Positions 5,135 to 63,086 of a DNA stretch of 64,000 bases are shown here, in pieces (position 1 is the first letter of the stretch; every line of letters starts with the position of its first letter). The stretch lies in IMG/VR virus record IMGVR_UViG_3300018080_000098, positions 1 through 64,000 of that record; one strand, 5' to 3'. The notes under the pieces are model-generated. The model was not told where the DNA came from, did no database searches, and was given only the letters and a program-made list of their open reading frames with translations. The translations under genes were made by a program, and so were the position numbers. Source of the stretch: a virus.

Positions 5135-5200
5135 CAAAAATCGGCGCGTCGAGTGAGCGAGTATGTTATCTTCTACTGTACCCCAAGGAAAAGGTGAACT

Positions 5201-5898: not shown

Positions 5899-6000
5899 TG
5901 CCTCGACGCGCCGCGTCGGCCCGACGTCTCCTCGACCTTTTAGGCTATCCAGACCCTCGCAAAATATTTTCGACGGTGCTCGACTGGTAGACTATCCAGA

Positions 6001-6015
6001 ATTTTGTATAGAGAG
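6001..6015 (-). promoter_or_regulatory. Conserved 15-mer CTCTCTATACAAAAT, copy 1
   Basis: Perfect 15-base match shared with four other sites (20283, 21550, 31628, 32318), all on the minus strand. This copy lies 3 bases after the stop of the gene at 6019. No -35 hexamer is visible. Candidate phage-specific promoter or processing site. Confidence 0.6.
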
Positions 6016-6018
6016 AAC

Positions 6019-6687
6019 CTACTCCTCGTCCTCTTCCTTCGGCGGGAAAGGCTGCAACGACTCCCGCACTTCCTCCTCCGTCCCCAGCGCCAACTCCTCG
6101 TGGCACAGCCCAACCTCTTCCTCCAGCTTCTTGATCGCTTCCTCGTAGTAGAAGCGTTGCGAGTTGTAGATTTGCCGGATAGCTGCCACCGCACGGATCG
6201 CTCGCTGGATTACACTCCACGCTTCGTCCACCTGCCTCGTGGCATTGTTGATAGCAATGTGACCATCTTTCTCGTACCGCTGAAGACTGGTGCGCAGTAA
6301 CCGGATCTCCGACATCCGACGCTTACGCCCCTCCGGACTCACCCGAAGCTCTTCCCGCTCCGCTGCCCGTGCCGCTTCCTCTTCTGCCTTCACGCGGTCC
6401 CGACGCTCCACAGCTTCCTGCGCCGCAGCTTTACCCAGCGGAGAAAAATCGAAGACGTACACGTTGTAGTGTGTGCCCCACTCTTTGAATACACCATGCT
6501 TGACTAGTACCTTCACCGATGCCATGTGTGCGTATTCACGGTGTAGCGTCATCCTCCCCACTAGATCAGGAGGTTCATACTTCGATGCAACCTCACCGTT
6601 CTCATGAAACGCAATAAGCGCGTGAGTCTGCTTGTCGTTCAAAGACCCGAGCAGCGTGTCAACTTCTTTTTTCTTAGGCTTCGCCAT
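6019..6687 (-). CDS. Hypothetical protein with coiled-coil region
   Basis: 222 residues from MAKPKKKEVD. Residues ~20-95 form a mixed domain (NDKQTHALIAFHENGEV, then YAHMASVKVLVKHG) that could be a winged-helix-like fold. Residues ~100-205 are a long charged helix rich in Arg and Glu. Acidic C-terminus PKEEDEE. The start follows GAAACGGAGAGCACA. No known family. Confidence 0.8.
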   Translation of the reverse strand: MAKPKKKEVDTLLGSLNDKQTHALIAFHENGEVASKYEPPDLVGRMTLHREYAHMASVKVLVKHGVFKEWGTHYNVYVFDFSPLGKAAAQEAVERRDRVKAEEEAARAAEREELRVSPEGRKRRMSEIRLLRTSLQRYEKDGHIAINNATRQVDEAWSVIQRAIRAVAAIRQIYNSQRFYYEEAIKKLEEEVGLCHEELALGTEEEVRESLQPFPPKEEDEE

Positions 6688-7437: not shown

Positions 7438-7983
7438 TTACTCCGGTAGGATGATAGACGAGAACCGAGCCGCGACATCCGCTTGGACAGGCGCGTCACT
7501 CTTGACTTCCTTAATCGGCTGGGGGATCTCGCGGGGAATATTTTCGAGGGCGTGCTTCAACTGCTTACGTAGCTTCGGGTTGTAACGGATGTCCCCGTTA
7601 TCCAGCGCACGCTCCAGCTGCTCCCTACTGGTGATGTTGTAGTCTGCCCACAGCTTCCGAGCGGTAGCTGGTCCCACGCCAGGCAAGCTCAGGATGTCCG
7701 CCATCGACGGAAGCCCTTTCGCTCGGATAGACTTGAGGCGTCCACAGGTTCCAGTCTGCGTAATTTCCTTGACAGCTTTGGCTGTGCTCTTGCCGATCAT
7801 GGGAATCTTCTGGAGCGCAGTCAATGTCTTCGAGGACACGTCCTCGTCTTCACACCACTCCATGAGTCCGGTAGCAGCATTCTCGAAAGCCATCGCGCGC
7901 CTCTTGTCTCCCAAGATAGCGTAGCCCTGCGACACTTCCATCAGGACTTCGGCCACTTCTTTTCCTGTGGTGGGTTTACTCAT
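7438..7983 (-). CDS. Pol X-type helix-hairpin-helix DNA-binding protein without polymerase domain
   Basis: 181 residues. The N-terminal ~65 residues resemble the 8-kDa domain of family X polymerases. Two helix-hairpin-helix motifs follow: IPMIGKSTAKAVKEI, then LPGVGPATARKLW after a GLPSMADIL linker, as in bacterial Pol X and TdT-like proteins. The catalytic palm domain is absent. It is likely a structure-specific DNA-binding protein in repair or replication. ATG 7983 is preferred over 7986 because it gives a 6-base gap to GGAG. It overlaps the upstream gene by 8 bases. Confidence 0.8.
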   Translation of the reverse strand: MSKPTTGKEVAEVLMEVSQGYAILGDKRRAMAFENAATGLMEWCEDEDVSSKTLTALQKIPMIGKSTAKAVKEITQTGTCGRLKSIRAKGLPSMADILSLPGVGPATARKLWADYNITSREQLERALDNGDIRYNPKLRKQLKHALENIPREIPQPIKEVKSDAPVQADVAARFSSIILPE

Positions 7984-44932: not shown

Positions 44933-45652
44933 CTAGTTCGCAGGCTCGGTGGAGGGGGCGCTCTTCACTAGCGAGAGCTCTTTCATTGTTCGGTAGGCGG
45001 CAGAGTAGTACTTCCCGTAACCACGCTTCGTAAAGAGAGCTCCACTTTTCGCGTCACCCAAACTCTGTTTCAGTCTCTTCTTCACATACTTCGGGAAAGG
45101 GCACATCCAAAAGTAGAAGCTCTTGGTGAACTCCTTCGAGCGCCGTTCGATGTACTCGTCATCAATAGCCACTCCGTTCCAATGGCGAACCGCTATGGAC
45201 AGACCGTACATCTGAAATTCCCAGTGAGCTCGGAAGAACCCAAAGGGTGGGAAAGACACCAGAGCACACCCCAGCACGAAAATCAGCCCAGCCCACCAAG
45301 GAAGCCACACGAAGAACATCCAACCAAAGAGCAGCGCTGGAACCAAATAGACCGGAGTACCCAGCAGGTACAGAGCACCAAAGAGGAACCGTGTGAGCTT
45401 CTTGGCCTGCAGCCCATGGCCAGCCTCGTGCCACAACGTGCGCCAGCCAGCCCTATCCTTCCCCGGACATCCCACTGTGAACCCGAGAGTTGTGTAGTAG
45501 CGCTCCATGTAGTCTGGATTGCCAAATACTTTCAGGAGTTTCCCGATGGTTCGATGTAGCCACGAGTCTTCCTTCGAGATAATTTTGAGCTTCGGGACGA
45601 ACTCCTTGCACGTCGCCACCGTAGCATCGTAAATTTCCAGGTCTGTAGGCAT
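44933..45652 (-). CDS. Membrane-anchored zincin-like metallopeptidase
   Basis: 239 residues. LWHEAGHGLQAKK near residue 75 is an HExxH zinc-peptidase signature. Two or three membrane spans follow (residues ~85-140, LFGALYLLGTPVYLVPALLF then WAGLIFVLGCALVSF). The third zinc ligand is not certain; HWEFQ and the DDEYIERR segment are candidates. A phage membrane protease could act on envelope or virion proteins. It is preceded by the structured RNA region and its terminator. Confidence 0.75.
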   Translation of the reverse strand: MPTDLEIYDATVATCKEFVPKLKIISKEDSWLHRTIGKLLKVFGNPDYMERYYTTLGFTVGCPGKDRAGWRTLWHEAGHGLQAKKLTRFLFGALYLLGTPVYLVPALLFGWMFFVWLPWWAGLIFVLGCALVSFPPFGFFRAHWEFQMYGLSIAVRHWNGVAIDDEYIERRSKEFTKSFYFWMCPFPKYVKKRLKQSLGDAKSGALFTKRGYGKYYSAAYRTMKELSLVKSAPSTEPAN

Positions 45653-45700
45653 ACCAAGTCCTCGGTTTCGTTGGCCTAACAGAAGCTAACTAGACCGCCT

Positions 45701-45745
45701 ACAAAAAATTGGCCCCCTGGCCGATGGAAGGGAAGCCAGGGGGCC
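45701..45745 (-). terminator. Rho-independent terminator of the structured RNA
   Basis: GGCCCCCTGGC (45745-45735), 13-nt loop, GCCAGGGGGCC (45721-45711), then AATTTTTTG on the minus strand. Confidence 0.85.
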
Positions 45746-45980
45746 TGTCCAAGGAAAGCAGAATGGGTCGCCACGTAATAATCACCACCAGTTGGAGCGG
45801 TGTAACCCACCCAGTGGTGAGGTAGCAATGGAGTCCAGATGGACCTGTGTTGCTACCAGAACCTAACCTGATTTTTCGTATTATTTCTTGGAGAGAAAAA
45901 GGTGCGCGGAGGTAGGAAGACCTTGGGGGGACTGGGGAGGGGGAAAGGCTGGGCCACCAACCTCCGCGCTATCCGGATTT
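45702..45980 (-). ncRNA. Structured noncoding RNA, about 280 nt
   Basis: The 373-bp gap 45653-46025 has no gene: no ATG occurs on the minus strand between ~45980 and 45700. Minus-strand order: promoter; stem GCGCGGAGGT (45969-45960) with ACCTCCGCGC (45913-45904) around a pyrimidine-rich 46-nt loop; hairpin GGTAGCAA (45857-45850) / TTGCTACC (45828-45821) with an inner GGTCC-ATCT-GGACT; hairpin CACCAC/GTGGTG (45819-45783); and a perfect 11-bp terminator. Function unknown; could be a regulatory RNA, a packaging-type RNA or a long leader of the peptidase gene. Confidence 0.65.
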
Positions 45981-45986
45981 TTGTAG

Positions 45987-46015
45987 TTTCTAACAGATGC
46001 CCAAACGGAAGTCAA
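45987..46015 (-). promoter_or_regulatory. Promoter of the structured RNA
   Basis: Minus strand: TTGACT (46015-46010), 17-bp spacer, TAGAAA (45992-45987); predicted start near 45980, 11 bases before the first stem. Confidence 0.6.
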
Positions 46016-46025
46016 GTAGAAAATG

Positions 46026-47468
46026 CTAGATAGCGTAATCCTCCGCCAACTTCAGCTTGGCACCGTTCACCACTCCACTAGGGTGTGCAGCAGAAGTTCC
46101 CGCTGCGTCCGTGATGCGCCGACTAGCAACTGCTTGGTACCAGTACTTGTCCCAGCTACTACGGCTGCGGAACTGAGCTACCACCAGCAGCTGCGCTTCC
46201 GGGTCCGCAGCACAGTGCTGAGTCACAATCTCCTGGGCCGCAGATTGGTTAGCCGCTTTGCACGCGCCCTTATCCAAATCACTTCGGTCTTTCCCACCAT
46301 GCTTCTCGTAGTGCTTCCACCAAAGCGCCTTCATCCCACTCTCCCCATCCTCCCCATAATCGATGTACTTCCCCAACGTCTCGTTCCACCACGTACCATA
46401 ATAGAGCTCGGGCCACTTGTACCCCTTCGGGTCGCTCTTCTCCCAATCCTCAATCCCCTTCCAGAAAGGCTTCCGACTCCCGCTCCACATAGTACCGTTC
46501 TGCACCACCGAATCACAGAACAGTAGCACTGCACGCTCCCAGTACTTCTTCATCGATGGATCGTCTTCCCAAGCGTCGAACGCACCAAACGCCCGCAACT
46601 CCTTCATCGCCAACTTCAGTAGCTTCTCCTCAAAATATCGCATCTGGGTCTTGATGCCCTCAGTCGAGCCAAACCAATCCTGGATCGTAGGATTCACCAC
46701 CTTCTTGTCCGCACCGTTGTACACGTTCACCAAATCACTACGCCCGGCCAACTTCAACATCGAAACAACAGACCCGTAGCTGTTGCACTGGAAAATGCCG
46801 TAGTTCGCTCCGGCTCCATCACCAATGTCGTTCTCGGCCATCCCGAAAGCATCCCGTCGATTCGACACCTCGTAGAAAGCGATGACACTCATGATACGCG
46901 TGTTCAGGTCCGGCACGAAACCCGCCGCGTGCGCTTGAGGTAGTAACACAGAAGCTGTGCCCTTCCCGATAACTCCGTCTACCGGTTCGAGGTTGTTCTT
47001 CTCCTGGAACGCTTTGACAGCTTCCGCAGACCCATTCCCAAACCACCCGTCGACCTCCCCATCGTAAGCGCCTACAGCTTTCAGAGCTCCCTGGTAGAGA
47101 AACACCTCGGGCCTCTTGGTCGTAGCTTTGATCGTTGCCTTGCTGTACCTCTGATACTCCATCGGTTCCTCTCCTGTTGGTGGTTTCGGTTGTTCTGGTT
47201 GCTCGGGCTCTTCAGGTTCCTCCTCGAGAGGGCGCAGGAGCTCGATTGCCTCCTCGTCGATCAAAGAGATGTGCCAGGTCGTGGTAATCGTGGCGTCGAA
47301 CCTGCCACCCACCTTCATCTCAACCACGAGGTTGTCCCCAGCTACTTCAGTTACTGCGAAAGTCTGGCCCTCCCCAATCGTAATTTTCACGTTCAGGTCG
47401 GTACCCATTGCGTCGAAGTCGAACGCACGCTTGATGCGTATGACGTCCCCTACTTGCCAATCGATCAT
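46026..47468 (-). CDS. Peptidoglycan-binding lysin (endolysin or tail lysozyme)
   Basis: 480 residues. Residues 1-80: small barrel (WQVGDVIRIKRAFDFDA). Linker rich in Glu, Pro and Gln (residues 82-103). Residues ~115-180: peptidoglycan-binding domain (ALKAVGAYDGEVDGWFGNGS, FQEKNNLEPVDGVIGKGT). Residues ~190 onward: glycoside-hydrolase-like domain with IAFYEVSNRRDAFGMAENDIG and GANYGIFQCN, where the Glu of FYE is the likely catalytic acid. The layout resembles phage cell-wall hydrolases; GH46/lysozyme-like fold is a guess. No signal peptide, so export would need a holin or virion location. Confidence 0.8.
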   Translation of the reverse strand: MIDWQVGDVIRIKRAFDFDAMGTDLNVKITIGEGQTFAVTEVAGDNLVVEMKVGGRFDATITTTWHISLIDEEAIELLRPLEEEPEEPEQPEQPKPPTGEEPMEYQRYSKATIKATTKRPEVFLYQGALKAVGAYDGEVDGWFGNGSAEAVKAFQEKNNLEPVDGVIGKGTASVLLPQAHAAGFVPDLNTRIMSVIAFYEVSNRRDAFGMAENDIGDGAGANYGIFQCNSYGSVVSMLKLAGRSDLVNVYNGADKKVVNPTIQDWFGSTEGIKTQMRYFEEKLLKLAMKELRAFGAFDAWEDDPSMKKYWERAVLLFCDSVVQNGTMWSGSRKPFWKGIEDWEKSDPKGYKWPELYYGTWWNETLGKYIDYGEDGESGMKALWWKHYEKHGGKDRSDLDKGACKAANQSAAQEIVTQHCAADPEAQLLVVAQFRSRSSWDKYWYQAVASRRITDAAGTSAAHPSGVVNGAKLKLAEDYAI

Positions 47469-47804: not shown

Positions 47805-49502
47805 TTACTTGCCCGGCTTCATGCTCATCTTGTAGAGCTTGTTCCCACGGTAGAAGTGCAGCTGCCCCTTCACGCGGGCCAGCATCATGTCACCACCCAG
47901 CACCGGGTCTTCCAGATAGCTCAGCTTCCGAGAACGATGGTCCGCTTTGAACATCTCGAGCTTCTCATCCTCGTTCAGACAAACAGCCACACCCGAATCG
48001 AGCACCACGAAGTTCAGTCCAGCTGGTGTAATATTTTCGACCACGCGTACGTCGTACTCCGCGTCCTCGAAACGGAACACCAACCGGTCGTACTGCCCCT
48101 GCTTCTCACCCACCACCATCAAAACACCGCGGTCGTACCTGGCGTCCACAATCCGGTAGCCCTTGAGCTCATCAGGTAGCAACTGTACTGTGATACCACT
48201 CCTCGGAAACACCGACACCACCATCGTATCCAGCATATCCTGGATCACTACCCCCGGAAACATCTGCGTAGAATTCTCCATCACAGTACACGCCAACCGC
48301 GTCGTCGCTACCAAATCCGCGCCCATGTCGGCCAACACCAACTCATACACACTGTCCCGTACCCGCATGTACACACGTCCATCGTAGGCCATCAGGTCCG
48401 ACGCCTCCAAAGAAAACGCCACGCCCCGACGGTCCGTGAGGTTGTACAGCTTCACACCCCGACTCGTCTTCTCCACCGATACCGCTTTGTTACGTGCAGG
48501 ACTGTACGCTACCGCGTCCACCGACATCCCAGCTTCCGGAATCGAGTGGCCGTTCAGCCACACCAGGTCGTCCGTCACCACCGTCACATGCTGCCCGAAA
48601 CCCCACACACTCCGCACTACGCACTTCTCACCCCCGTACGACCCCACCTCCACAATGTCCAGCAAGTCCGTGCCCACAATCTCCCGCAGGTCCGGAACCA
48701 GCACCATCACCATGCCCGGAGCAACCGGAGGAGCCGCCCGCTTCCCATCCTCGAATACCGCCCGATACCAATCACGATACTCACTCGGAATCACCGTCAC
48801 AGGGTACGCCGCCTTCGGCACACGCACACTCGAGCTAAACACTGACACGTTCGCCTTCATGCGCGCGTCCAGTCCCTTCAGCTGCTTGTGCTTCCCCTTG
48901 AACGGATGAATACCACAGAACATCTGGAAGCTCACCACCCCAAACGCGAACCAGTCCGTCAGCTCCGTGAACGCCAACGGCCCCTTCATGTGCCTGTCGC
49001 GCACACTCTCCATCAACGCCGTTGCTGGGAACGATTTCGTTTGGTAGGAGTCCACATCAATAAAACGAATTTCCTCGAAGCTCTTACTCACCAGGAAATT
49101 CATTTCGTTCAGGTCGACGATCAAAATTTTCGCCTGGTGAACGTGCCCCACACCTTCCTGCAGCTCCCGAACCAGGTGGGTAATCTGAGCCAGGTCCAGC
49201 CCCTCCCGCTCCCTAAACGCTCGAGGGAACAGCTGGCACAAGGCGTACCCACCTCGCACCAACGCCATCGTGTAGCCCACTGGGGTTCCCTTCGCGTTCG
49301 TGATCACTTCTAGCGGCTTCACCACCCGCTTGTCCGTCAACGCGCTCAGCTCCTGGATTTTCGCCACCGGTATCATCTTCTTCCGGTCCGCGTAAATCTT
49401 GTATGCTGTGCTCCCTCGCGCGTACACCGCACCCTCTCCACCCTGGCCGAGGTAGTGCCGCTTGTCGAGGCGTACCGCTTGTCCGTTGACGTAGATTTGC
49501 AT
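47805..49502 (-). CDS. Ser/Thr protein kinase with C-terminal propeller-like region (TerY-P triad kinase)
   Basis: 565 residues. Kinase domain residues ~15-270: glycine loop YLGQGGEGAVYA, catalytic Lys in AYKIYA, catalytic loop ILIVDLNEMNFLV (VDLNxxN in place of HRDxxxxN), metal-binding FIDVDSYQT (in place of DFG). The C-terminal ~280 residues are strand-rich with repeated V-D-D/W blocks, probably a beta-propeller sensor. With the PP2C at 49961 and vWA at 51110 it makes the TerY-P triad known from stress and conflict systems. The atypical HRD and DFG residues are compatible with activity but should be noted. Confidence 0.85.
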   Translation of the reverse strand: MQIYVNGQAVRLDKRHYLGQGGEGAVYARGSTAYKIYADRKKMIPVAKIQELSALTDKRVVKPLEVITNAKGTPVGYTMALVRGGYALCQLFPRAFREREGLDLAQITHLVRELQEGVGHVHQAKILIVDLNEMNFLVSKSFEEIRFIDVDSYQTKSFPATALMESVRDRHMKGPLAFTELTDWFAFGVVSFQMFCGIHPFKGKHKQLKGLDARMKANVSVFSSSVRVPKAAYPVTVIPSEYRDWYRAVFEDGKRAAPPVAPGMVMVLVPDLREIVGTDLLDIVEVGSYGGEKCVVRSVWGFGQHVTVVTDDLVWLNGHSIPEAGMSVDAVAYSPARNKAVSVEKTSRGVKLYNLTDRRGVAFSLEASDLMAYDGRVYMRVRDSVYELVLADMGADLVATTRLACTVMENSTQMFPGVVIQDMLDTMVVSVFPRSGITVQLLPDELKGYRIVDARYDRGVLMVVGEKQGQYDRLVFRFEDAEYDVRVVENITPAGLNFVVLDSGVAVCLNEDEKLEMFKADHRSRKLSYLEDPVLGGDMMLARVKGQLHFYRGNKLYKMSMKPGK

Positions 49503-49751
49503 CTACTCTTTCCAATATTTGGAAAACGCTGGTGCTGTTCCAGTTAACCGGTCCTCTGCAGCCATCTGTCGATAAGGAGCGCCCTCCCTGCTCATGGTGC
49601 CGCAGCCTTCCGGAAGTTTGTCCACGTACGTGTGTACCGTGAAGCCGGGAACTGCTTCGTGCTCCCCTACCACTAGCCACCTTCCTCGAGGCTTGTTCAC
49701 CCGGAAAATCTCCAGCTTGAAACCCTCATGGTTATACACGTAAGCTGCCAT
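49503..49751 (-). CDS. Small protein between phosphatase and kinase
   Basis: 82 residues from MAAYVYNHEG, strand-rich (FKLEIFRVNKPRGRWLVVGE). ATG 49751 is chosen behind GGAGAAAAAGA. Its stop abuts the kinase start, so it is part of the signalling operon; an adaptor or substrate is possible. Confidence 0.7.
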   Translation of the reverse strand: MAAYVYNHEGFKLEIFRVNKPRGRWLVVGEHEAVPGFTVHTYVDKLPEGCGTMSREGAPYRQMAAEDRLTGTAPAFSKYWKE

Positions 49752-49762
49752 TCTTTTTCTCC

Positions 49763-49960
49763 TTAGTCGTACACCTCGAAAGAGACGCGCATCCCACATT
49801 TGCTACACGTCCACTCTACCCACGAGCCTCCCCACTCATCGTGCTCCTTCTGAGACTCCGGTGGGTAATCATGGTCACATTCCTCGTCTCCTCCACGTGT
49901 TTTGCAAGTATGAGGACAGCAGTATACAGGCAATTTAATTTTTCGGTTTTCAGTTGGCAT
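49763..49960 (-). CDS. Small zinc-ribbon protein in the signalling operon
   Basis: 65 residues, CCPHTCKTRGGDEECDHDY and WTCSKCGMRV give one or two zinc sites. It starts 1 base after the PP2C stop. Confidence 0.7.
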   Translation of the reverse strand: MPTENRKIKLPVYCCPHTCKTRGGDEECDHDYPPESQKEHDEWGGSWVEWTCSKCGMRVSFEVYD

Positions 49961-50815
49961 TCATTCTCCTACGTACACCGCCCCCATACTAAAATCGTCG
50001 TAATTCGACCACCCGTTCTTCTTGCAGAACTTTCCCAGAAACCGCTTGCACCGTCGGGTGACGAACTCCCCCTTCACCGTCTTGAACTTCAGTAGCTGCT
50101 GCAACACCGCCTGCAAAGGCACCGTCTCCAAAACCCCGTCCTGCTTTCTTTGGAAAGACAGCACACCATCCGACATCACGGTGACCAGGTCGAACGTTCT
50201 CCTGTCGAAACACTTGACCCACCAGAAATCGTCCGGATGCTTGGTCACCTTGTCAGTGAACCTGTGCTCTGGAATCTCCTCCCACTCCGTCAGGTCCGCG
50301 TTAGCCTCGTACCCCCGCTCTGTTCGTAAACCACACTCTCCGAGCTCCGCTCCGCTACTCAACGAACCACTCGTGTACGCTTCCATGCGAAGCTGGTTTA
50401 TCTGGTAGCTTAGGTAAGCTGGAGCGTTATTGTTAAACTCCAGCTCTGTCACAAGAACACTGCCGTCTCTACGCCTCGCCGCAATGACCCCATCCCCACA
50501 AGCGAATACGTAAATCAACTTTGGTGTAGTGTGTACGAAAAGAATGGTGGAGTCCAGGCACTCCACTTGAGGACCCGCGCCCAGAAACCGACAGGCCATC
50601 GGCAAAACGCCGCGGAAGAAAAACCGGTTGTCGGAAGACCGCAAGCACTGCTCCGCGCCGAAGCACAGAAACCGAGCCCCCAAATCTGTGTGCGGAGAGG
50701 ACGAGCATCCATCAGCCACCGCTGCGAAGAAACTCCCATCGACCTCCCCGGCCAACGCGTAGTCCTGGCAAACCTTGTGACTGCTGCCGATGGAAAAATA
50801 GAAATCGGAGTACAC
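49961..50815 (-). CDS. PP2C-type Ser/Thr phosphatase (TerY-P triad)
   Basis: 284 residues. PP2C metal-binding motifs appear in order: FAAVADGCSSS (DG), LDSTILF (DxT), VFACGDGVIA (GDG), VTVMSDGVL (DG), NYDDFSMGAVYV (final DD). This small class lacks extra domains. It would reverse phosphorylation by the kinase at 47805. Confidence 0.88.
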   Translation of the reverse strand: MYSDFYFSIGSSHKVCQDYALAGEVDGSFFAAVADGCSSSPHTDLGARFLCFGAEQCLRSSDNRFFFRGVLPMACRFLGAGPQVECLDSTILFVHTTPKLIYVFACGDGVIAARRRDGSVLVTELEFNNNAPAYLSYQINQLRMEAYTSGSLSSGAELGECGLRTERGYEANADLTEWEEIPEHRFTDKVTKHPDDFWWVKCFDRRTFDLVTVMSDGVLSFQRKQDGVLETVPLQAVLQQLLKFKTVKGEFVTRRCKRFLGKFCKKNGWSNYDDFSMGAVYVGE

Positions 50816-50839
50816 GGGCGCCTCCCAGACTACGCTGCC

Positions 50840-51070
50840 TTACGCTGCTGTGTAGTAGGTTTGAATTGTTTTCGGTCCGCTACTTTTACGCTTACTTTTC
50901 AGATAAGCGACGCACCAAGCTTCTACCGAGTCTACTTTGGCGACAACAGAATGAACCGCGGTGCCGTTTTCATAGACGTCACAATGCTCGCAGTGCCATG
51001 CTAGAGCAGTTGCTGCTGAGAAAAGTGGCAGCAATTCCCTTCCACAACGTGAGCAAACACCTTCCTGCAT
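50840..51070 (-). CDS. Small zinc-ribbon protein in the signalling operon
   Basis: 76 residues, CSRCG..CEHC in the first 35, then a helical, basic tail. Located between vWA and PP2C genes; possibly an adaptor. Confidence 0.7.
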   Translation of the reverse strand: MQEGVCSRCGRELLPLFSAATALAWHCEHCDVYENGTAVHSVVAKVDSVEAWCVAYLKSKRKSSGPKTIQTYYTAA

Positions 51071-51109
51071 AATACCTCCATCTACTAGAGGACGCTTAGC
51101 CCACGAACT

Positions 51110-51859
51110 CTAGAAGGCCAATGATTTACTTGGACCTCCCGTGCCGAGTGCCTGCGACTGCGAGCTGATGCTTTGCGAAATAAAGCCACCCAGCTTCGCC
51201 AGCTGCTTCTCTGTGGCATCCGCAATCTCCACGTACTGCGTGAACCCCGCTTCGTCGGTGAACTCCTTCAGGTAGTTCCCCAGCTGGTCCGCGAGCGTGT
51301 TCACACCAACGAGCACCGAAACGATGGATTCCATCGATTCCGTTTTCACTGCTTCCCGCATGGCGTCCTTCACCATCCCCCGCGTCAGCTTGGACTTGTT
51401 GTCCATTCCGTCGGTCACGCACACCAGAATGGCGTTGACGTCGAAATCGTTTTCAGCGAGATCACGGCTGTACTGCGTCATCGACTGCACACCGTTGTAA
51501 ACGGCATCATAAAGCGCAGTGAGTCCCGCAGGCTGGATGCACCCGTCGTAGTCGTCCTCGTTGCACTCCGACAGCGGCTTGAAGCCGTGGTACTCGTCGA
51601 CGCTCGAGTTGAAGGTAATCACCCGGAGCATCAGGTTGTCCGCCCGAGGACTGCGCCGACAAGCCCTCGCCACCTCCTTCACCACCTTCTCCATGTCGTC
51701 CGCGAAGTCGGTGATGGAAGGGCTGCAATCGATCACCAGCAGCGCCAGCGTATACTCGCTCGCCCCCAGCTCGTCGATGCGCTTCGCAGAAAATTGGAAG
51801 TTGGACGTGCCCACCTGGTGGGTCTCCATCGTCGGATCGTTGTTGTCAAATCGCGGCAT
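51110..51859 (-). CDS. von Willebrand A domain protein, TerY-like
   Basis: 249 residues. A vWA fold with an intact MIDAS: VIDCSPSITD (DxSxS), the Thr in PAGLTALYDAV, and the Asp in VCVTDGMDN. TerY proteins of this type occur in a fixed trio with a PP2C phosphatase and a protein kinase. Start ATG 51859 after GAGGAGGTACATT. Confidence 0.88.
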   Translation of the reverse strand: MPRFDNNDPTMETHQVGTSNFQFSAKRIDELGASEYTLALLVIDCSPSITDFADDMEKVVKEVARACRRSPRADNLMLRVITFNSSVDEYHGFKPLSECNEDDYDGCIQPAGLTALYDAVYNGVQSMTQYSRDLAENDFDVNAILVCVTDGMDNKSKLTRGMVKDAMREAVKTESMESIVSVLVGVNTLADQLGNYLKEFTDEAGFTQYVEIADATEKQLAKLGGFISQSISSQSQALGTGGPSKSLAF

Positions 51860-53547: not shown

Positions 53548-54409
53548 CTGTCGCTTCCTTTTGTGCTTTGGGGTTCAGCCACAAGCATTCAGTGCGTCCT
53601 TGCGTTACCTTGATTACTCCGTCGCCCTGTAGCTGGGTATGCTTTGTTCTCGCTGCTGCGTTGCAGGACCGGTCGAAGCTCACCAGTTGCCACCCGTCCT
53701 TCTTGAGCTCCTTGTACGTATCGTTCGGGTATCCCGACAGCACCACCATCCCCTGCAGCTTCCTAGCCGCCTCCACCATCTCCTCCTGCTCTTCCTTCGT
53801 CATTTCGAAGTAGTACCAGCCATCCCGACGTGTCTCCCGAGGATAAGGAGGGTCCAGATAGAACAATGTGTCCTCACCGTCGTACGCAGAGAACATCTCC
53901 TTGTAGTCGACGTTGTGAATCAACACCCTCTTCATCCTCTCCGCCACCCGCGGCAACATCTTGATCGCCCCGACGTACGCATTAATAGGCTGAGCCATCC
54001 CACGCACGCTCGTGTTCGTTACCAGCCCCCACGAGGACCTATCGATCATCCCACCCAACGACTGCCGACAATCCACGAAGAACATCCGAGCTCGCTCCAC
54101 ATCATCCTTCGCATCGTGCCAGTGGTCTTTACTGTGCAACCGCTCCTCACGGCTGTACGGCGTCAGCATCAGCTGCTCTATGAGCAACTCCCGCTGAGCG
54201 TCGTCCACTATCACCTCGAACAGTGTTGTAATGCGAGGGTCGATGTCGTTGAACACCTCGACCTCACTGTGCTCCTTCACCAGCAGCACGCTGCCACCGC
54301 CTCCGAAAGGTTCCACGTACACGCGGTGCTTGGGGAAGTAGGGGAGGATCCGCTTTCGCAGGACACCCTTTCCGCCGATGATTTTAATAGGGGACCGAAG
54401 AACTGCCAT
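53525..54409 (-). CDS. Adenine-N6 DNA methyltransferase, Dam (D12 class)
   Basis: 294 residues. KIIGGKGVLRKRILPYFP and YVEPFGGGGSVLL (SAM-binding FxGxG), catalytic DPPY in LFYLDPPYPRETR. Dam-type enzymes methylate adenine, often in GATC, protecting against restriction or timing replication. Target sequence not deducible. Its ATG overlaps the topoisomerase A stop. Confidence 0.9.
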   Translation of the reverse strand: MAVLRSPIKIIGGKGVLRKRILPYFPKHRVYVEPFGGGGSVLLVKEHSEVEVFNDIDPRITTLFEVIVDDAQRELLIEQLMLTPYSREERLHSKDHWHDAKDDVERARMFFVDCRQSLGGMIDRSSWGLVTNTSVRGMAQPINAYVGAIKMLPRVAERMKRVLIHNVDYKEMFSAYDGEDTLFYLDPPYPRETRRDGWYYFEMTKEEQEEMVEAARKLQGMVVLSGYPNDTYKELKKDGWQLVSFDRSCNAAARTKHTQLQGDGVIKVTQGRTECLWLNPKAQKEATDESTEQT

Positions 54410-56580
54410 CAGTCTTCATCCGTGAGCGGAATGATTGCCAGCGGAGTGTTCTCTTGGTTACGTAGCTGCTGCACCACTTCTTCATAGGAGGCTACCCACC
54501 TCTTGGCTCCCGCTTCCGGCACGACGAGGTTACGTTCACCCACCGCCCACACCGGCCACTCTGCTTGGGTAATGTCTGCGTCACCTATCTCGACTGCACC
54601 ATTATCCATTAGAGTAGTACCTGCTGGAATGACAACTGCTCCTTCGATGCCTCTTGCTTTCCGTCTTTTCGAAAACAGCTTTGGCTTCACGTTAGGACGC
54701 GTGACCTTGAAGTCGCTTACCGTGCAATCTTGCTGCGTCTCGTCCTCGAACATCACCAGAAGTCTATCCTCCTCGTGCAGTCCCCCAACGAAAACTATCT
54801 CGTCGTCCTCCAGCTGCTTGAACACTGGGAACTGCGTACGACGCTGGTCGGGCGGGAACGCCACATACTTGCCGCTCCGCGATAGCACCACAACGCATTC
54901 GTGGTCTTCCGACGCCACACCGATCACCTTCCCCACACTCTTGTCGAACTTCTCCATGAAAGAAATCGACACCGACTGCCCCACGTTGTCCTCCGACACT
55001 ACCGCAAACTTCCCCGGCGTAGTCACCAGGTCCACGTATCCCCACGCTGCCCGACTCTTCAACGGTAGCTCTGTAAAACTGTCCACCTTGCCGTCCTCCG
55101 TTACCCCCACGTAGTACGTCGCCTCCGCTACCGTCAAATCCAAGTCGTCCTTCCCACCCCGCAACCGCGTCCCCCGCTTGTCCGCGTACTCCAGCATCTC
55201 CCGCAATCGACGTCCCACTACACGGTCCAGGTTCCCTAAGTCGTCCTTCACCTCGTCAATTCGATCACTGTACTCCTGAATCCGCTGCTCCAACTTCTCC
55301 TTGTTGATACTCATCAACCCCCGCACCGGAGTCTCCGCTATCACCTTCGCCTGGTCGTTCCCCACAAAACCAAACTCCTCCTGCAGCCTGTTAATCAAAT
55401 CCTCCTCCGACTCCGCCTCCATCAAAATCTTCGTCACCAACGGCAAAGCCCGCACCGCTACCAACCGAGCCGCCTCCATCCCCCGCTTCCGCTCCAACTG
55501 CCGCTGCTCCTCCTCCAATACCAACTGCTCCACCTTCCGACGAAAACGTAAAAATATTTGCAGCAGCTCCTTTAAGCTGTACAGCACCGGACGCTTCTTG
55601 TTGTCCAGCGCGTAAAATTGGTACGTCATCGAAGACCGCAACAACGGCAACACCCGGTCGTTCACTATCTTCGGGTCCGTGAACTCCACTACCACCCGCG
55701 TCCCGATCTTCTTCGAGCTTTCATCGTTCGCCGCCGACTCCAACAGCTTCGCTTCCTTCAACTCCTCCGTTACCCGTACCAACTTCTTCGCATCAAATCC
55801 CGGACCGAAACTTGTGACCACCAACTTCTGCTTGCCCCCCTTCCCATCCTCGAAGTGGTAGTTACACGAGTACATCAACCGACCGCGCCCCGTTCCGTAC
55901 ACCGTCCGCAAATCATCCTTCCGAGACAACAAAATCCCCCCACCGTAATCCGGCCCCTTCACATGCTTCAACAAATCATCCGTCGTACACTCCGGATTCT
56001 CCAACACCTCCAACGCCGCGTTCACCATCTCCCCTAAATTGTGCGGAGGAATATTTGTGGCTATCGCCAGCGCTACCCCCTTGCAGCCGTTCACCAGCAA
56101 CATCGGTACACGCACCGGCAACAGGAAAGGCTCCTCGTACTCCTCGGTGAACGACTTCACCAACGGCATGATCTTGATGTCGTCAAACACCCGGTCCGCA
56201 AACTTCGACAACCGCGTCTCCGTGTACCGGTACGCAGCCGGAGGAGCATCCATCAACGACTCCCGAATGCCGAAGTTACCGTGCTTCTGCACCAACGGAT
56301 GCCGCAACCAACCCATGTTCACCAACGCACCGTAGCACGCCTCGTCACCGTGCGGATGGTACCGACCCAGCGTGTGCCCCACCGCTGTCACCGACTTCAC
56401 CGGTATGTCCTTGCTGTGCCGCTTCAACTCGTGCAACGACCACAGCAGCCGACGCTGTACCGGCTTCAATCCGTCCCGCGCATCCGGTATCGCCCGGTCC
56501 TCGATCACGTACCTTCCGTACTCGAGTATGTACCCCTCGCGTACAATATCCGACGCTTTCTTCTGTTTCAACTTCGCCAT
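54409..56580 (-). CDS. Type IIA DNA topoisomerase, subunit A (GyrA/ParC-like)
   Basis: 723 residues from MAKLKQKKAS. Winged-helix region IPDARDGLKPVQRRLLW.., catalytic Tyr in AAYRYTETRLSKFAD, tower and coiled coil, then a C-terminal region of beta-pinwheel blades (residues ~480-700). No QRRGGKG gyrase box was found, so topoisomerase IV-like decatenation or relaxation is more likely than supercoiling. The B subunit is at 58222, two genes upstream in transcription order. Confidence 0.9.
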   Translation of the reverse strand: MAKLKQKKASDIVREGYILEYGRYVIEDRAIPDARDGLKPVQRRLLWSLHELKRHSKDIPVKSVTAVGHTLGRYHPHGDEACYGALVNMGWLRHPLVQKHGNFGIRESLMDAPPAAYRYTETRLSKFADRVFDDIKIMPLVKSFTEEYEEPFLLPVRVPMLLVNGCKGVALAIATNIPPHNLGEMVNAALEVLENPECTTDDLLKHVKGPDYGGGILLSRKDDLRTVYGTGRGRLMYSCNYHFEDGKGGKQKLVVTSFGPGFDAKKLVRVTEELKEAKLLESAANDESSKKIGTRVVVEFTDPKIVNDRVLPLLRSSMTYQFYALDNKKRPVLYSLKELLQIFLRFRRKVEQLVLEEEQRQLERKRGMEAARLVAVRALPLVTKILMEAESEEDLINRLQEEFGFVGNDQAKVIAETPVRGLMSINKEKLEQRIQEYSDRIDEVKDDLGNLDRVVGRRLREMLEYADKRGTRLRGGKDDLDLTVAEATYYVGVTEDGKVDSFTELPLKSRAAWGYVDLVTTPGKFAVVSEDNVGQSVSISFMEKFDKSVGKVIGVASEDHECVVVLSRSGKYVAFPPDQRRTQFPVFKQLEDDEIVFVGGLHEEDRLLVMFEDETQQDCTVSDFKVTRPNVKPKLFSKRRKARGIEGAVVIPAGTTLMDNGAVEIGDADITQAEWPVWAVGERNLVVPEAGAKRWVASYEEVVQQLRNQENTPLAIIPLTDED

Positions 56581-57659
56581 CAACTTATCCCCAGATATCC
56601 AGAAACAATCTGAATGCCCAGCTCTTCTATCTTGTTCCGTCGAGGTGCGTGTTGCAAATCCGAAGTCTGGTGCAACTCCTCGAGCTCCGCACTAATCTCG
56701 CCCTCCCACCGCATCAGCTTCTCGTAGCTCCACTCGCCCCGCTTGATCGGCAACAACACACTCTCAGCCTCCACGCACTCCACGTGGATCGTCTTCTCGG
56801 TCAAAATTTCCCTACAGTTAATTAGAAGCCTGGCCAGATGCGTGGCGTGCTTCGAATCATAACCGTACTTCTCTTCTGACTCCTTACGCCGCGGATTACG
56901 CTCCTTCTTCCAGTGCAACCATGACTTGTACTCCTTGCGCGCCTTTTGATAGAGCTTCTCCTGCCGCAGCACCTCAAGAAAGTTGTCGTCGAATCCCAAC
57001 GCCTTCCCAGCTGCTACCCAACTTTTCTCCTCCACTTCCTGCATCGTCAACGACAACGTGTGCTCCAAGAAGTTACGTAGCATATGCCGCACACCCATCG
57101 CTGCATCCTTGGCAATTCCCGACAACTCCTCCTCGATAGGATACTTGTTCAAGTGCCGACGGATCAGCTCCTGCGCCGCGTTGACCGTCTCCGTAGGAAG
57201 CTCCCTCCTATCCCGCAGCCCGAAGTCCTCCCGCTTAGGCTCCTTCAGCTCCCCCTTCATCAACCATTCCCGGTGACTCCGCATTCTACGCATCTGGCTG
57301 TGGGAGTAACCTCTGTACGAATGGAAACACTTCTTCGAGAGGAACCAGTCCCGGTGTTCCACCAAACGTTCCCAGTATCCACTGCTATCCGTCCAGTACT
57401 TCTCCGGTATCCACATCAACTCGATGATGTTCGGATTGTTCTGCGCTGCCAAGTGTAAAAACTTCGACAGCCCGTAGATAACCTCGTCCACTTCCTTCGG
57501 TGCGTACTGCTCGAACCGACTGGCGTAACCCAACCAGTACCGATGCGGCGGAATGCACACACCGCGGTAGTCGTAATCGGAATCCTTGTTGTGTGTTCCG
57601 TACACCCGAGAACCCGTGAGCGTTCTAAAAATAGTATGGTCTTTAACATCGAAATTCAT
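56580..57659 (-). CDS. Nucleotidyltransferase, RlaP-like (COG3541 type)
   Basis: 359 residues from MNFDVKDHTI. LTGSRVYGTHNKDSDYDYRG is the GSxxxGT..SDxDxRG signature of polymerase-beta-fold nucleotidyltransferases of the RlaP type. Helical C-terminal two-thirds. Some relatives have been linked to RNA repair; the substrate here is unknown. Start by GGAGGGTGAG directly before ATG 57659; it overlaps the upstream gene by 4 bases. Confidence 0.82.
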   Translation of the reverse strand: MNFDVKDHTIFRTLTGSRVYGTHNKDSDYDYRGVCIPPHRYWLGYASRFEQYAPKEVDEVIYGLSKFLHLAAQNNPNIIELMWIPEKYWTDSSGYWERLVEHRDWFLSKKCFHSYRGYSHSQMRRMRSHREWLMKGELKEPKREDFGLRDRRELPTETVNAAQELIRRHLNKYPIEEELSGIAKDAAMGVRHMLRNFLEHTLSLTMQEVEEKSWVAAGKALGFDDNFLEVLRQEKLYQKARKEYKSWLHWKKERNPRRKESEEKYGYDSKHATHLARLLINCREILTEKTIHVECVEAESVLLPIKRGEWSYEKLMRWEGEISAELEELHQTSDLQHAPRRNKIEELGIQIVSGYLGIS

Positions 57660-58222
57660 CTCACCCTCCAGAACCATGTAAACGGTGGCAACGGATTCAA
57701 ATCCCTCGCCGGAATAGTAAACGCACCGCTGAATACCCCACTGTCGTTCGGCCGCTTCGGCAACATAGCATCCGTCGCCCAACCAATCAAATGAGCTACC
57801 ACCGGCTTCGGAGGCTTCATCTCCGTCACCAACACCAACACGTACACCCAATCCTCGTGACGCTCCTTCGGCCGCACAGCCAACCGGTACGCCAACAAAT
57901 CCCTATCCGGGTTCCGAGCCAAGCTCGCTTTGAAATCAATGTTCGACCCGATGAAATCACTTCCACCATCTCCCACTGTAGGATTCTGGTTCGCCACCCA
58001 CCGCGAGCGCAAGTACGGATCTGGACTCCCAAACAACCACAAGCTCCCCACGTACTGCCCCACCTGACCTACCAGTTGATCGTTCTTCAACGTCGCTTGC
58101 CGATCCCCACCCCGAATGTTTGACCTCCCACCAACACACGCCAGCTTCGCGTGCGCCGCTACCACGTTCATCTCCCCAGGAGAAATCTCCACCCGGATAA
58201 TGTCGCTCCTCGTAATTGTCAT
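57656..58222 (-). CDS. Putative PD-(D/E)XK nuclease-like protein
   Basis: 188 residues from MTITRSDIIR. GDGGSDFIGSNIDFKAS has the spacing of a PD-(D/E)XK active site (Asp, then DxK), with flanking strands ...YRLAVRPKERHEDWVYVLVLV. The assignment is by motif only. It lies between the two topoisomerase subunit genes and overlaps topoisomerase B (TAATG). Confidence 0.6.
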   Translation of the reverse strand: MTITRSDIIRVEISPGEMNVVAAHAKLACVGGRSNIRGGDRQATLKNDQLVGQVGQYVGSLWLFGSPDPYLRSRWVANQNPTVGDGGSDFIGSNIDFKASLARNPDRDLLAYRLAVRPKERHEDWVYVLVLVTEMKPPKPVVAHLIGWATDAMLPKRPNDSGVFSGAFTIPARDLNPLPPFTWFWRVR

Positions 58223-60090
58223 TATTCCACGACGCCCAGGATCTTCTTCCGGTGCACGGGGTCCTTCCCCATGTACGCCAACACCAATTCCTGGTCCTTC
58301 TTGCCACCCCATAATACCTGGAACACCTTCCGCGTCTTCGGGCTCATCGCGTAAATCTGCAAGTCCCCCGCTTCCGACTCTCCCAAACCCTTGAACCGCG
58401 TGATCCGCGTCTTCACGTTCCCCTTTATCTGCTCCCGTACCTCCTCCACCGTATCCCCGTACACCCGCTGCTTCGCCGTCACCCCCATGAACAATGGACT
58501 CTCCACTACAAACAACCGACCATCCTCAATCAGCTGCGGCATGTGCGCCGCAAAGAAAGTTAATAGCAGCGCCTGAATATGCTTCCCATCCGAGTCCGCA
58601 TCCATCAACAAGTAGATTCCCTTGTAGCGACACTTCGCCAGGTTGAACGCCGGACCAATCCCAGTACCCACCGCCTGCGTAACACTCGTAAGCTCCGCGT
58701 TCGCTAGAATCTTGTCGATGCCTACCTCCGCAGCGTTCTTCACCTTCCCACGTAAAGGCAAAATCTCCTGGAAATGCACGTTCTCTTTCAACGTCACCCG
58801 GGCATCCCGAGCACTCCCGAACGCCGAAGTACCCTCGACGATAAACAGTTCCCGCTCATCCGGAGAGCAATCAGAAGCTTCACACAGTTTGCCAGGTAGA
58901 ATACTCTTGGCACCCTGCTTGACTTTCATCTCGCGGATCGCTTTTTGCTGCTCCCGCAACTTCTTCTTCGCGTCCCGCAGCAACACCGCCCGCTCGAGCA
59001 GCTGCTTCGTCACGTCCGGATTCGCAGCTACGAATTTTCGCAGCGCGCTCTCCACAATCTCCTGTACCTGCTCCTCCACCTCTCGATTCTGCAAACTGCG
59101 CTTCGTCTGCCCCCGAAACTCTGGCTCCAAAACGTGCGCGTGCACAATCCCCACTACACCTTCACGCAGATAGTCACCCTTCAGTTTACCGTACTTGCCG
59201 CTGGCAGCCTGGTCCTGCAGCACCTTTTGAATGGCCTTCTTCACCCCCGATACGTGCTTCCCGTGCTCTGGCGTGCTCGTCACGTTCACGAAAGACGACC
59301 ACCACTCCGTACCAGCATCCGTCCAGACGAGTGCCACCTCCACCAACTCCTCTTCGACCACGATAGGCTCGTGTAGCTGAGCAACATCCGGATGCTCCTC
59401 CATGTACACCGGCAACATGTCCGCCAACCCACCGTCTGCCACAAACCGCTCTGGCGCTTCATTGTCCACCTTGAACTCCACTACCAACCCAGGGCACAAG
59501 TAGGCAATCGATTGTAGCCTTCTCCGAATGCGCCCAACGTCGAACTTCGCTCCTTTGAATATCTTCGGGTCCGGCCGGAACATGATCCGCGTCCCCGCCT
59601 GCATCTTCACCTTCGCCCTATTCACCTTCGTCGTTGGTTCGCCTCGCTCGAACGTCTGGTGATACACCTTCCCGTTCTGCACCGTCCACACAGACAGCTT
59701 CTCAGACAACGCGTTTGTCGCCTTGATACCAATGCCGTGCAGCCCCGCCACCGCGCTCGTGTACGCCCCCTGCCCAAACTTCCCTCCCGAGTGTAGCTTC
59801 GTGAGCACCGCCGTCAACAAAGGCAGCCCGGTCTTCTTGTGCTTCGATACAGGTATCCCGCGCCCGTTATCGATCACCACTGCTATCTGATTAGCCGTGT
59901 CAATTTTTACACCAACCGCAGTAACGTGCCCATCCATGAACTCGTCGATAGCGTTGGACACCACCTCCTCGAGAACATGATGTAATCCATCGGGGCCGGT
60001 GTCCCCGATGTACATGGCAGGTCTCAGGCGGATGGGCTCTAGGTTCTCGAGGATCTTTATTTTATCCCCGGCATAATGCTTCTTGCTCAA
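58222..60090 (-). CDS. Type IIA DNA topoisomerase, subunit B (GyrB/ParE-like)
   Basis: 622 residues, the length of ParE. GHKL ATPase domain: EVVSNAIDEFMDGH, VIDNGRGIPV, GLHGIGIKATNALS. Toprim domain: ELFIVEGTSAFGSARDAR (EGTSA in place of the usual EGDSA) and MDADSDGKHI. C-terminal RITRFKGLGESEAGDL. Pairs with the A subunit at 54409. Confidence 0.92.
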   Translation of the reverse strand: MSKKHYAGDKIKILENLEPIRLRPAMYIGDTGPDGLHHVLEEVVSNAIDEFMDGHVTAVGVKIDTANQIAVVIDNGRGIPVSKHKKTGLPLLTAVLTKLHSGGKFGQGAYTSAVAGLHGIGIKATNALSEKLSVWTVQNGKVYHQTFERGEPTTKVNRAKVKMQAGTRIMFRPDPKIFKGAKFDVGRIRRRLQSIAYLCPGLVVEFKVDNEAPERFVADGGLADMLPVYMEEHPDVAQLHEPIVVEEELVEVALVWTDAGTEWWSSFVNVTSTPEHGKHVSGVKKAIQKVLQDQAASGKYGKLKGDYLREGVVGIVHAHVLEPEFRGQTKRSLQNREVEEQVQEIVESALRKFVAANPDVTKQLLERAVLLRDAKKKLREQQKAIREMKVKQGAKSILPGKLCEASDCSPDERELFIVEGTSAFGSARDARVTLKENVHFQEILPLRGKVKNAAEVGIDKILANAELTSVTQAVGTGIGPAFNLAKCRYKGIYLLMDADSDGKHIQALLLTFFAAHMPQLIEDGRLFVVESPLFMGVTAKQRVYGDTVEEVREQIKGNVKTRITRFKGLGESEAGDLQIYAMSPKTRKVFQVLWGGKKDQELVLAYMGKDPVHRKKILGVVE

Positions 60091-60095
60091 CTTCT

Positions 60096-63086
60096 CTATC
60101 CTACGCTAGCTTGGAGGTTTCGCTTCTGCCACCAATCCCAATAGCTCAACGCCTTCCCCAACGGACCAGACTTCAGCTTCAGCTCGATGTTCTTCGACCC
60201 ACACTCCTCGCACCGCTTGTTCTTGGGGTACGAAGTCTCTTCGCGTTCTTTCCCACATGCACGACACTTTACAACGTACTTCTCCTGGATGTCAATATCC
60301 ACCTGGTCCGCCCACGTAGGCCCAATCGAGAAATCCGCCACGAAGGGAATCGACATCTTCACCCCGAACGGCTTCATCAGCTCCGGGTCCACCATGATTC
60401 GATCCGCCACCTCAATATACTCCTGCACATCCTCCACTGGAATCTCCGCAATAATCGAGTCGTGCACGATATTCAACAGCTTCCAGGGCTTCTTACACAA
60501 ATCAATGTGTTTCTGAATAGCGATGCACGCCATCAGATTCGTGTCGCTAGCTATCGCTTGGATAGGCGCGTTTCGACAAACCCGGTCCTCGTAAGACCGA
60601 TACTTCCCAATATCTGTTATAATGCGTCGTCCGTCTATCTCGAAATACTCGTTGTCGTCGGTAACCACAAATCCCGACACCAAATGCCGACGACGACCAA
60701 TAGGTGACTCGACGTAGCCCCGGTTGAATCCATACTCCTCAATCCACGTGAGCCACTTGCGCGCTCGAGGAAATTGTTGCATGAATTTGTCTTGGAAGTC
60801 AGCTGCCTCCCTCGTAGAAATTCCAAGCGCCTCGGAAATTCCAAACACAGACATACCGTAGATGATCCCGAAGACGATCTGCTTCGAACCACCTCTTTCC
60901 AAATCTGTAATTTCGTGCGGAGGTTTACCAAAAATCTGTGAAGCGGTCTGTCGATGGAAGTCGCCTTCCTGGATCATCCGTCGACGATTCTCTTCCGTAG
61001 GATTCTCCAAGTAAGCTTTCTGAACTCGTGCAACAGCTTCAAAAGCGGCTTTGAGATTGGGATCACCCGTGATCTGCGCTAGCCACCGTACCTCTGCCTG
61101 GCTGTAGTCCGCGCAGACCATCAGGTGCCGTTCCTCCACGGTGTACACTCGTTTCACTGCCAGAGCGTTGACCGTCTTCCCCTTGGGGATGTTCTGCATG
61201 TTGGGCTCGCTCGAGCTTGTCCTCCCCGTGGCTGCGATGTGGAAGTTGAACGACGCGCGAATACGACCGTCGCGCATCTCCGGACTGTTCTGCAACATTC
61301 GATAGGGAGCTTCGATGTACGTTCCCCTCAGCTTGTCGAGCGACTTCCACTCGGATGCCAGGTCGACTTCTTTTACTCCCTTGTTCTCTTTGTAGAATGC
61401 CTTGTCGATTTTTGGGCGCTGTGTCTTTTCTGTTATCTGTGTTGGCAGTCTAAGCACATCGACGAACAAGGCTTTCTGCGAGTCGGGCTTGTTGATGTGG
61501 AAGAGCCACGGCTCTTTCGCTTGGCTTCCCCAGATACCCGCCATGCCACGAGTTCTCTTCACCTTCCGAAGCAGTATCTGATTCGCGTGCGTTACACTTT
61601 CCAAGTTCCGTAACTCGTCTTCGATATGGAACAACCTTCCGACGATAGGAGAATCTTTCCGCAGCAAGTAACGAAGTTGTTCCTTATTGGCTTTGATACC
61701 GTTTCGCTCCATGATAGCAGCGAACATCGATACGGGACCATGCATATGCACGCCCAACCGTTTGAGTTTTTCCTGGTACTCCATCTGCGCTGCCACCAGG
61801 TCCTGCATGTGATGCAGCCGCCAGGTTACGTAGCAGTCCATTCCGTTGTACTCGCACAGTGTGGAGAGGTCGGCTTCTTCCATCGAGCGTTTTTTACTAC
61901 CACGGATTGCCAACGCTTGTACAATATCCTCATCCACGTACCCAGTGAACCCGAGCCACTCGTCGCTCAGCGTTTTCAGCCCGAAGGGGTATTGTGTTAC
62001 GCCTTTTCTGTTCTCGTTCAGCGCGTGCGCTCGCAGCATTGTATCCTCGAGGGGGAGGTTCCACAATGGAATCCCAAACTCGTCCAGTGTAGCTGCGCAC
62101 TCGAACTTGAGGTTGTGCGCTACCAAAGACCGAAAGGATACGTTGCGAGCAGTGAAGAACATGTGTAGTAGTTTCTTCACCTCGCGGAACTCTTTGCCAC
62201 TCCATGGACTGTCGGGGTGTCGGTAAGGGATAACGAATCCCCGGTCGGGGCCGTAGGCAAACCCGACTGTCAATATCTTGTTGCCCACTCGCTGTAAGTT
62301 GGCTGTTTCGTAGTCCAGCACAACCACTCGATCCTTATCCAGGTTGCTCACCATATGCTTGAGCAACTTGTACACCTTATCTACTTCCTGCACTACTACT
62401 GTCGGCTTCCCTCGTTTACTGTAGTCTGGTACTACCCCTCGAGCTTTGTAGAACGCCCGAGAAATATCCTCCTCGAACATCCCTCCCATTCCTGGCGTTC
62501 TGCTGACGAAGGCGAAATGAAAAGTGATGATAGCCGGGTACTCCTCCCCGTCCGGCGTCTTTACCACTACCTCTTTTCCCCGCAGCCCGAATACTTTGGC
62601 AGCCGAGTCAATCTGCTCGCCTGTTTGCTTGTCCACCGCTAGCCCTACTGCTGCTGATTTACCAAGCAGCACAATATAGGCAGGCTTGACCTTCATGATG
62701 TCGCGCAAAATATTGCGTCGACACGTCCGCACCTCAGCCGAAGTAGGCGGTCGGTCCTTGCGAGGGTCTTCCTCGCGCACAGGTCTGCACCGCACCACGT
62801 TCCCGTAGGCCACCCCTTTTTGCGTTCCTCCGTTGACTTTGTGGACTAACTGCCGAAGGATCTGACCCGTTCCACCCACCATCGGTCGACCCACATCATT
62901 CTCTACCCGTCCTGGGGCCTCCGCGATAAACATCACGTCGACACCCATCCCCTTCCTATTCTTTCCTCCTCGGTAAACTTCGGTGGGAACCTGCTTACGA
63001 ACGAAGCGGTTGCCTAACAGGGGGCACTCGTACTGTTTGCAGATGTTATCTGCGAGAGGAGAAAGGATGAACTGGTCGTCGGTCAT
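60096..63086 (-). CDS. DNA polymerase A with N-terminal UDG-like domain and C-terminal zinc ribbon
   Basis: 996 residues. Residues ~1-230: family-4 uracil-DNA-glycosylase-like domain (DVMFIAEAPGRVENDVGRP, NVVRCRP..). Residues ~245-430: 3'-5' exonuclease (VVLDYETANL, VAHNLKFE). Residues ~560-930: family A polymerase (RIRASFNFHIAATGRTSS, MVCADYSQAEVRW, KQIVFGIIYGMS, LLNIVHDSIIAEI). C-terminus: CRACG..CEECG zinc ribbon. SPO1 phage polymerase also has a UDG-like N-terminus. ATG 63086 follows GGGAGCTCACCGA. Confidence 0.92.
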   Translation of the reverse strand: MTDDQFILSPLADNICKQYECPLLGNRFVRKQVPTEVYRGGKNRKGMGVDVMFIAEAPGRVENDVGRPMVGGTGQILRQLVHKVNGGTQKGVAYGNVVRCRPVREEDPRKDRPPTSAEVRTCRRNILRDIMKVKPAYIVLLGKSAAVGLAVDKQTGEQIDSAAKVFGLRGKEVVVKTPDGEEYPAIITFHFAFVSRTPGMGGMFEEDISRAFYKARGVVPDYSKRGKPTVVVQEVDKVYKLLKHMVSNLDKDRVVVLDYETANLQRVGNKILTVGFAYGPDRGFVIPYRHPDSPWSGKEFREVKKLLHMFFTARNVSFRSLVAHNLKFECAATLDEFGIPLWNLPLEDTMLRAHALNENRKGVTQYPFGLKTLSDEWLGFTGYVDEDIVQALAIRGSKKRSMEEADLSTLCEYNGMDCYVTWRLHHMQDLVAAQMEYQEKLKRLGVHMHGPVSMFAAIMERNGIKANKEQLRYLLRKDSPIVGRLFHIEDELRNLESVTHANQILLRKVKRTRGMAGIWGSQAKEPWLFHINKPDSQKALFVDVLRLPTQITEKTQRPKIDKAFYKENKGVKEVDLASEWKSLDKLRGTYIEAPYRMLQNSPEMRDGRIRASFNFHIAATGRTSSSEPNMQNIPKGKTVNALAVKRVYTVEERHLMVCADYSQAEVRWLAQITGDPNLKAAFEAVARVQKAYLENPTEENRRRMIQEGDFHRQTASQIFGKPPHEITDLERGGSKQIVFGIIYGMSVFGISEALGISTREAADFQDKFMQQFPRARKWLTWIEEYGFNRGYVESPIGRRRHLVSGFVVTDDNEYFEIDGRRIITDIGKYRSYEDRVCRNAPIQAIASDTNLMACIAIQKHIDLCKKPWKLLNIVHDSIIAEIPVEDVQEYIEVADRIMVDPELMKPFGVKMSIPFVADFSIGPTWADQVDIDIQEKYVVKCRACGKEREETSYPKNKRCEECGSKNIELKLKSGPLGKALSYWDWWQKRNLQASVG

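Follow-up and report, generated by a model that had tools for sequence, protein, structure and literature searches.

The gap upstream of the tail module in this jumbo phage raises the question of whether it encodes a discrete structured RNA, where such an RNA would start and end, and how it might act. An earlier note had proposed a self-contained noncoding RNA of ~280 nt. The comparison of homologous gaps described below points to a shorter product, for which a separate small RNA gene is quite probable. The fuller reading, an independent phage gene for a late-expressed, probably trans-acting structured small RNA, is favoured with somewhat less assurance, and regulation in trans as such is advanced tentatively, at slightly under an even chance.

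Genomic setting of the locus

The window, i.e., the whole 64,000-nt stretch of DNA that was analysed, covers the opening 64 kb of a virus record of 349,793 bases. It belongs to a jumbo phage whose genome encodes gyrase-like subunits and a DNA polymerase A of its own. Gyrase A and B lie at 54409–56583 and 58222–60090 of the window, and the polymerase (60096–63086, minus strand) carries an N-terminal uracil-DNA-glycosylase superfamily domain in a single frame. In addition, a topoisomerase IB-like protein is encoded at 220491–221996 (plus strand) of the phage genome. Adjacent kinase-like, PP2C-like and, by eye, vWA-like genes, together resembling a TerY-P triad, occupy 47805–51859 (minus strand) of the window and occur also in L002.

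All genes around the RNA gap lie on the minus strand, in the order endolysin, gap, metalloprotease, 337-aa protein and 1176-aa putative tail sheath. The upstream gene encodes an endolysin with a peptidoglycan-binding domain (46026–47468), and the gap starts immediately after its stop codon. The downstream gene (44933–45652, start codon at 45652) encodes a putative HEAGH-type metalloprotease without matches in Pfam or PHROG. The 1176-aa protein is assigned as a putative tail sheath because of its size, its position and its resemblance to another phage protein; family models gave no match to it, and searches of named phages returned a single distant match, KX853510. In nucleotide and protein searches, named phages yielded homologues of neither the RNA nor the metalloprotease nor the 337-aa protein. 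No tRNA was found within the 64-kb window.

Extent and architecture of the RNA

Much of the structure reported earlier is reproduced on the minus strand, including hairpins at 45857–45821 and 45820–45782, a perfect 11-bp hairpin followed by AATTTTTTG (45745–45702), and the absence of ATG on the transcribed strand from 46015 to 45702. Compared with dinucleotide shuffles, the 314-nt interval gave a z-score of −3.9, with 0 shuffles as good, and the 156-nt core folds better than its shuffles at a z-score of −4.6. Since an enriched promoter motif lies inside the interval, a discrete RNA of ~156 nt is indicated. The discrete structured noncoding RNA of the earlier note is therefore retained, backed by homologues, covariation, a promoter motif and a terminator-like hairpin, whereas its proposed extent of ~280 nt is not.

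The candidate RNA spans 45702–45857 (minus strand), with its predicted +1 at 45857. Hairpin P2 (45821–45857) would begin at this position and comprises 8 bp in the window and in the homologue L050, and 6 bp in the homologue L004. It is followed by hairpin P3 (45782–45820), whose stem shows compensatory changes and whose loop contains an invariant CACCGC, and by a single-stranded linker (45746–45781) in which comparison of the homologues reveals conserved TTACG and CCCAYT. The terminator stem P4 (45711–45745) has outer GGCCC/GGGCC pairs that are invariant in all three sequences and inner pairs that covary, and it is followed by the tail (45702–45710). In L004 and L050, P4 is followed by a poorer run of T, and some transcription may continue past the hairpin there. 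A DNA search and the covariance model both found the RNA to be single-copy in the phage genome. Every reading frame has stops in at least one of the three homologues, and the spacings between conserved blocks differ (18, 17 and 16 nt), which argues against a shared ORF. A long-range closing stem, CTACAAAAAT/ATTTTTTGTAG, was rejected, as it is not conserved in the homologues.

Promoter motif and predicted start site

When the three gaps were aligned, two copies of the motif GTTANNYTMTR were noticed by eye, one preceding P2 and one following P4; the enrichment test leaves this gap out. The RNA's own copy reads GTTAGGTTCTG in the window (45857–45867, minus strand), and the motif occupies the equivalent position in L004/L006 and L050; the second copy in the window, GTTAGCTTCTG (45680–45690, minus strand), would serve the metalloprotease gene. 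Over 224 kb with the RNA gap masked, 10 of 11 perfect copies fall in same-strand intergenic gaps upstream of genes, against 0.23 expected by length, and at 224–324 kb of the phage genome 3 of 5 matches are intergenic. Related contigs likewise carry the motif between genes, including upstream of sheath genes. Over whole distant records, the enrichment relative to the reversed pattern is weak, so that the motif is informative by position and not by count.

Within the window, sites are at 45867, 45690 and 43880 (minus strand) and at 5165 (plus strand), and both the tail-sheath gene and the metalloprotease gene are preceded by the motif. Elsewhere in the phage genome it lies upstream of genes starting at 90963, 117294, 150712, 157122, 191702, 201946, 213522 and 219131. 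At all these sites taken together, the motif typically stands 29–57 bases ahead of the start codon. Because the tail-sheath gene has the same motif, co-expression of the RNA with virion genes is probable, and it is the kind of co-promoted genes that suggests late timing.

Another upstream motif, CTTGTAAAATA, probably marks a further promoter class. At 71–223 kb of the phage genome, 7 of its 11 copies lie on the same strand upstream of genes versus 0.23 expected, for instance upstream of 105781 (minus), 131945 (minus), 203077 (plus) and 222059 (plus). The phage genome gave no match to Rpb1/Rpb2 (RNA polymerase beta/beta') domains; it does encode a protein with sigma-70 region 2 (157233–158678, plus strand) that might recognize one of the upstream motifs.

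The predicted +1 is the purine that ends the motif (the last G, 45857). P2 begins at this purine in both the window and L004, and in L004 the covariance model match begins, unprompted, exactly at the base that follows GTTACGCTAT, which is the predicted +1. Furthermore, at the gene at 213522 the motif and the ribosome-binding site are separated by just a few bases, too few for transcription to begin any later. Initiation further downstream, in the manner of a sigma-70 promoter, was rejected, since the transcript would then lose part of P2 and part of that ribosome-binding site. Late promoters of the jumbo phages AR9 (AACA-6N-TA/G) and phiKZ (TATG) initiate at the last purine of their motif (PMC5312081). 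Written as GTTA-5N-T(A/G), the present motif shares their layout of a four-base block and a TR at the start, whereas the sequence differs.

Homologues and covariation

With the window RNA as its sole input, a covariance model matched L004 at 4789–4932 and L050 at 7823–7935 (E ~1.5e-5; 1.5e-6 with filters off), the sole additional matches in the 237 kb searched. A combined model recovered the same members and no others in 822 kb. The RNA measures 130–147 nt in these relatives, and the L050 match begins inside P2 because P2 is built differently there (GCAGAGGA/TCCTTTGC). Three distinct RNA sequences are available in total; the gap of contig 3300017991_000132 is identical to that of the window and provides no independent evidence. 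Three-block pattern scans of IMG/VR and GTDB yielded many chance matches, the real ones on inspection being the window phage with a near-identical contig, L006 and the L050 contig. A model search of whole records found no further member, a weak negative since the known L050 member was also missed. L052 and L053 share the tail module and promoter and lack the RNA, and the model finds none in the related contigs L024, L025 and L026, the last of which ends within the endolysin gene, before the site. At 5920–6340, L052 contains tRNA-like ends seemingly split by extra sequence, where ARAGORN calls no tRNA.

The surroundings of the RNA differ among the phages. L004/L006 is a 10-kb contig with a 62% identical metalloprotease, in which the gap lies between this gene and a dCTP deaminase-like gene. 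On the 260-kb contig L050/L028, the gap precedes the 337-aa gene, and no metalloprotease gene intervenes. The upstream gene accordingly varies from endolysin to dCTP deaminase-like to a small ORF, and the immediate downstream gene is the metalloprotease or the 337-aa gene. These differing neighbours, together with the promoter motif between the RNA and the next gene, fit a separate gene.

Covariation was assessed in an alignment of the three sequences that was fitted to the structure, in which 16 of 35 pairs are altered on both sides and 96.7% of cells are paired. None of 500 shuffles scored as high, and slid-pairing controls gave 0–2, a slide of one column being enough to destroy the signal. 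Base pairs survive two-sided changes in P2, P3 and P4; in P3, 7 of 8 pairs are altered on both sides yet remain paired. A test that is independent of the structure-fitted alignment used shuffled flanks around CACCGC, and the joint chance of such stems in the three sequences was ~7e-6 for P3 and ~8e-4 for P2; considered on its own, P2 is weak in L004 (p 0.34). The earlier note had named a lack of covariation in relatives as one refuting result, and the outcome favours an RNA.

Mode of action and alternative explanations

As a separate gene, the RNA would be transcribed from the end of GTTANNYTMTR and released as a discrete molecule at the P4 terminator. Its 5' end would fold at once into P2, then P3 with the CACCGC loop, followed by the single-stranded stretch and the GC-rich terminator hairpin. 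Trans action is the default reading for a separate structured RNA whose unpaired CACCGC and linker are conserved, and an RNA or protein partner would be bound via the P3 loop and/or the linker. In a search of 412 start regions for mRNA targets, the best duplexes were no better than those of shuffled queries; the best P3-loop duplex scored −23.4 against a shuffled mean of −23.1, and the gene start of its target (220389) is probably miscalled.

The upstream boundary bears on two other explanations. The 10-bp stem noted earlier, P1 (45904–45969, pairing 45904–45913 with 45960–45969), is indeed present on the minus strand and lies 37 bases before the RNA promoter. A single ~280-nt RNA including P1 and starting from TTGACT-TAGAAA would account for the good folding of the long strand and for a similar stem with a C-rich loop and TTTCTCTC in L004. 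It is nevertheless improbable, as P1 is absent from L050 and an internal promoter divides it from the RNA, which leaves its membership unsupported. The T-rich tract after P1, ACCTTTTTCTCTCC (45903–45890), is terminator-like, and P1 probably terminates the upstream transcript. The promoter that the earlier note had proposed, TTGACT-17-TAGAAA, did not hold up: it matches 9 of 12 sigma-70 positions, lacks the final T, was unreported by a scan and is not conserved in a related phage. On the opposite strand, the C-rich loop (45914–45959) presents four G-runs fitting a G-quadruplex pattern, and L004 has a similar loop. An RNA cut from the 3' end of the upstream mRNA, with no promoter of its own, would suit a gap that begins right at the upstream stop codon; the 5' promoter motif in all three phages and a different upstream gene in each make this origin even harder to credit.

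Control in cis deserves more weight, although it too is unlikely. Here, the hairpins and P4 would act as a leader or attenuator in a 5' UTR, controlling read-through into the metalloprotease or tail module. In every case the RNA immediately precedes one module, that of the metalloprotease, 337-aa protein and sheath, and the weak P4 tails in L004 and L050 would permit read-through. However, P4 is separated from the next gene by a second promoter copy in the window and in L004, and by a near copy deviating by one base in L050, so the downstream gene need not depend on a leader; the regulated gene would, moreover, vary among phages. Very little probability is given to a simple insulator separating operons, in which P2 and P3 would be incidental. 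The locus does have the promoters and terminator-like hairpins for such a role, but an insulator requires neither the compensatory changes that preserve P2 and P3 nor the conservation of CACCGC and TTACG. Hardly more is allowed for a structural or assembly component, either built into the head or tail in the manner of a pRNA or packaged in the virion. The packaging RNA (pRNA) of phi29 has a comparable size range and a virion-gene setting; in contrast, the present RNA gave no covariance-model match to it and no evidence of packaging or loop-loop pairing. If true, this reading would make the RNA a virion-assembly RNA of a jumbo phage lineage and not a base-pairing regulator.

Relation to known phage RNAs and implications

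The RNA agrees with no Rfam family, as had been suspected earlier: Rfam 15 gave no match in the window at gathering or relaxed thresholds, and the three homologues showed only chance-level weak matches. Structured noncoding RNAs of phages and prophages with unknown function include GOLLD and ROOL, which are elaborate and often near tRNA islands, many GOLLD RNAs exceeding 800 nt (PMC12286853). The present RNA differs in its ~156 nt and three hairpins, in a window without tRNA, and gave no covariance-model match to either. Small regulatory RNAs of phages are also known, e.g., VpdS of VP882 and OOP of lambda (PMC12197685). Like these, the locus is a short noncoding transcription unit in a phage genome; unlike them, it has no opposite antisense gene, shows no sequence or structure match, and sits beside tail genes in a jumbo phage. 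The features of a phage small RNA gene can be read from sequence alone, namely a promoter motif, a terminator stem (with a weak T-run in the homologues) and no conserved ORF. The family thus appears undescribed in the sources searched, while its kind, the phage small RNA, is already known.

Altogether, the locus adds an RNA family of uncultured giant phages whose boundaries are predicted to the base, whose fold is conserved and whose promoter motif is shared with a tail gene. The defined boundaries and the invariant CACCGC loop make its function testable, and the GTTANNYTMTR consensus offers a route to mapping co-regulated genes across this phage group.
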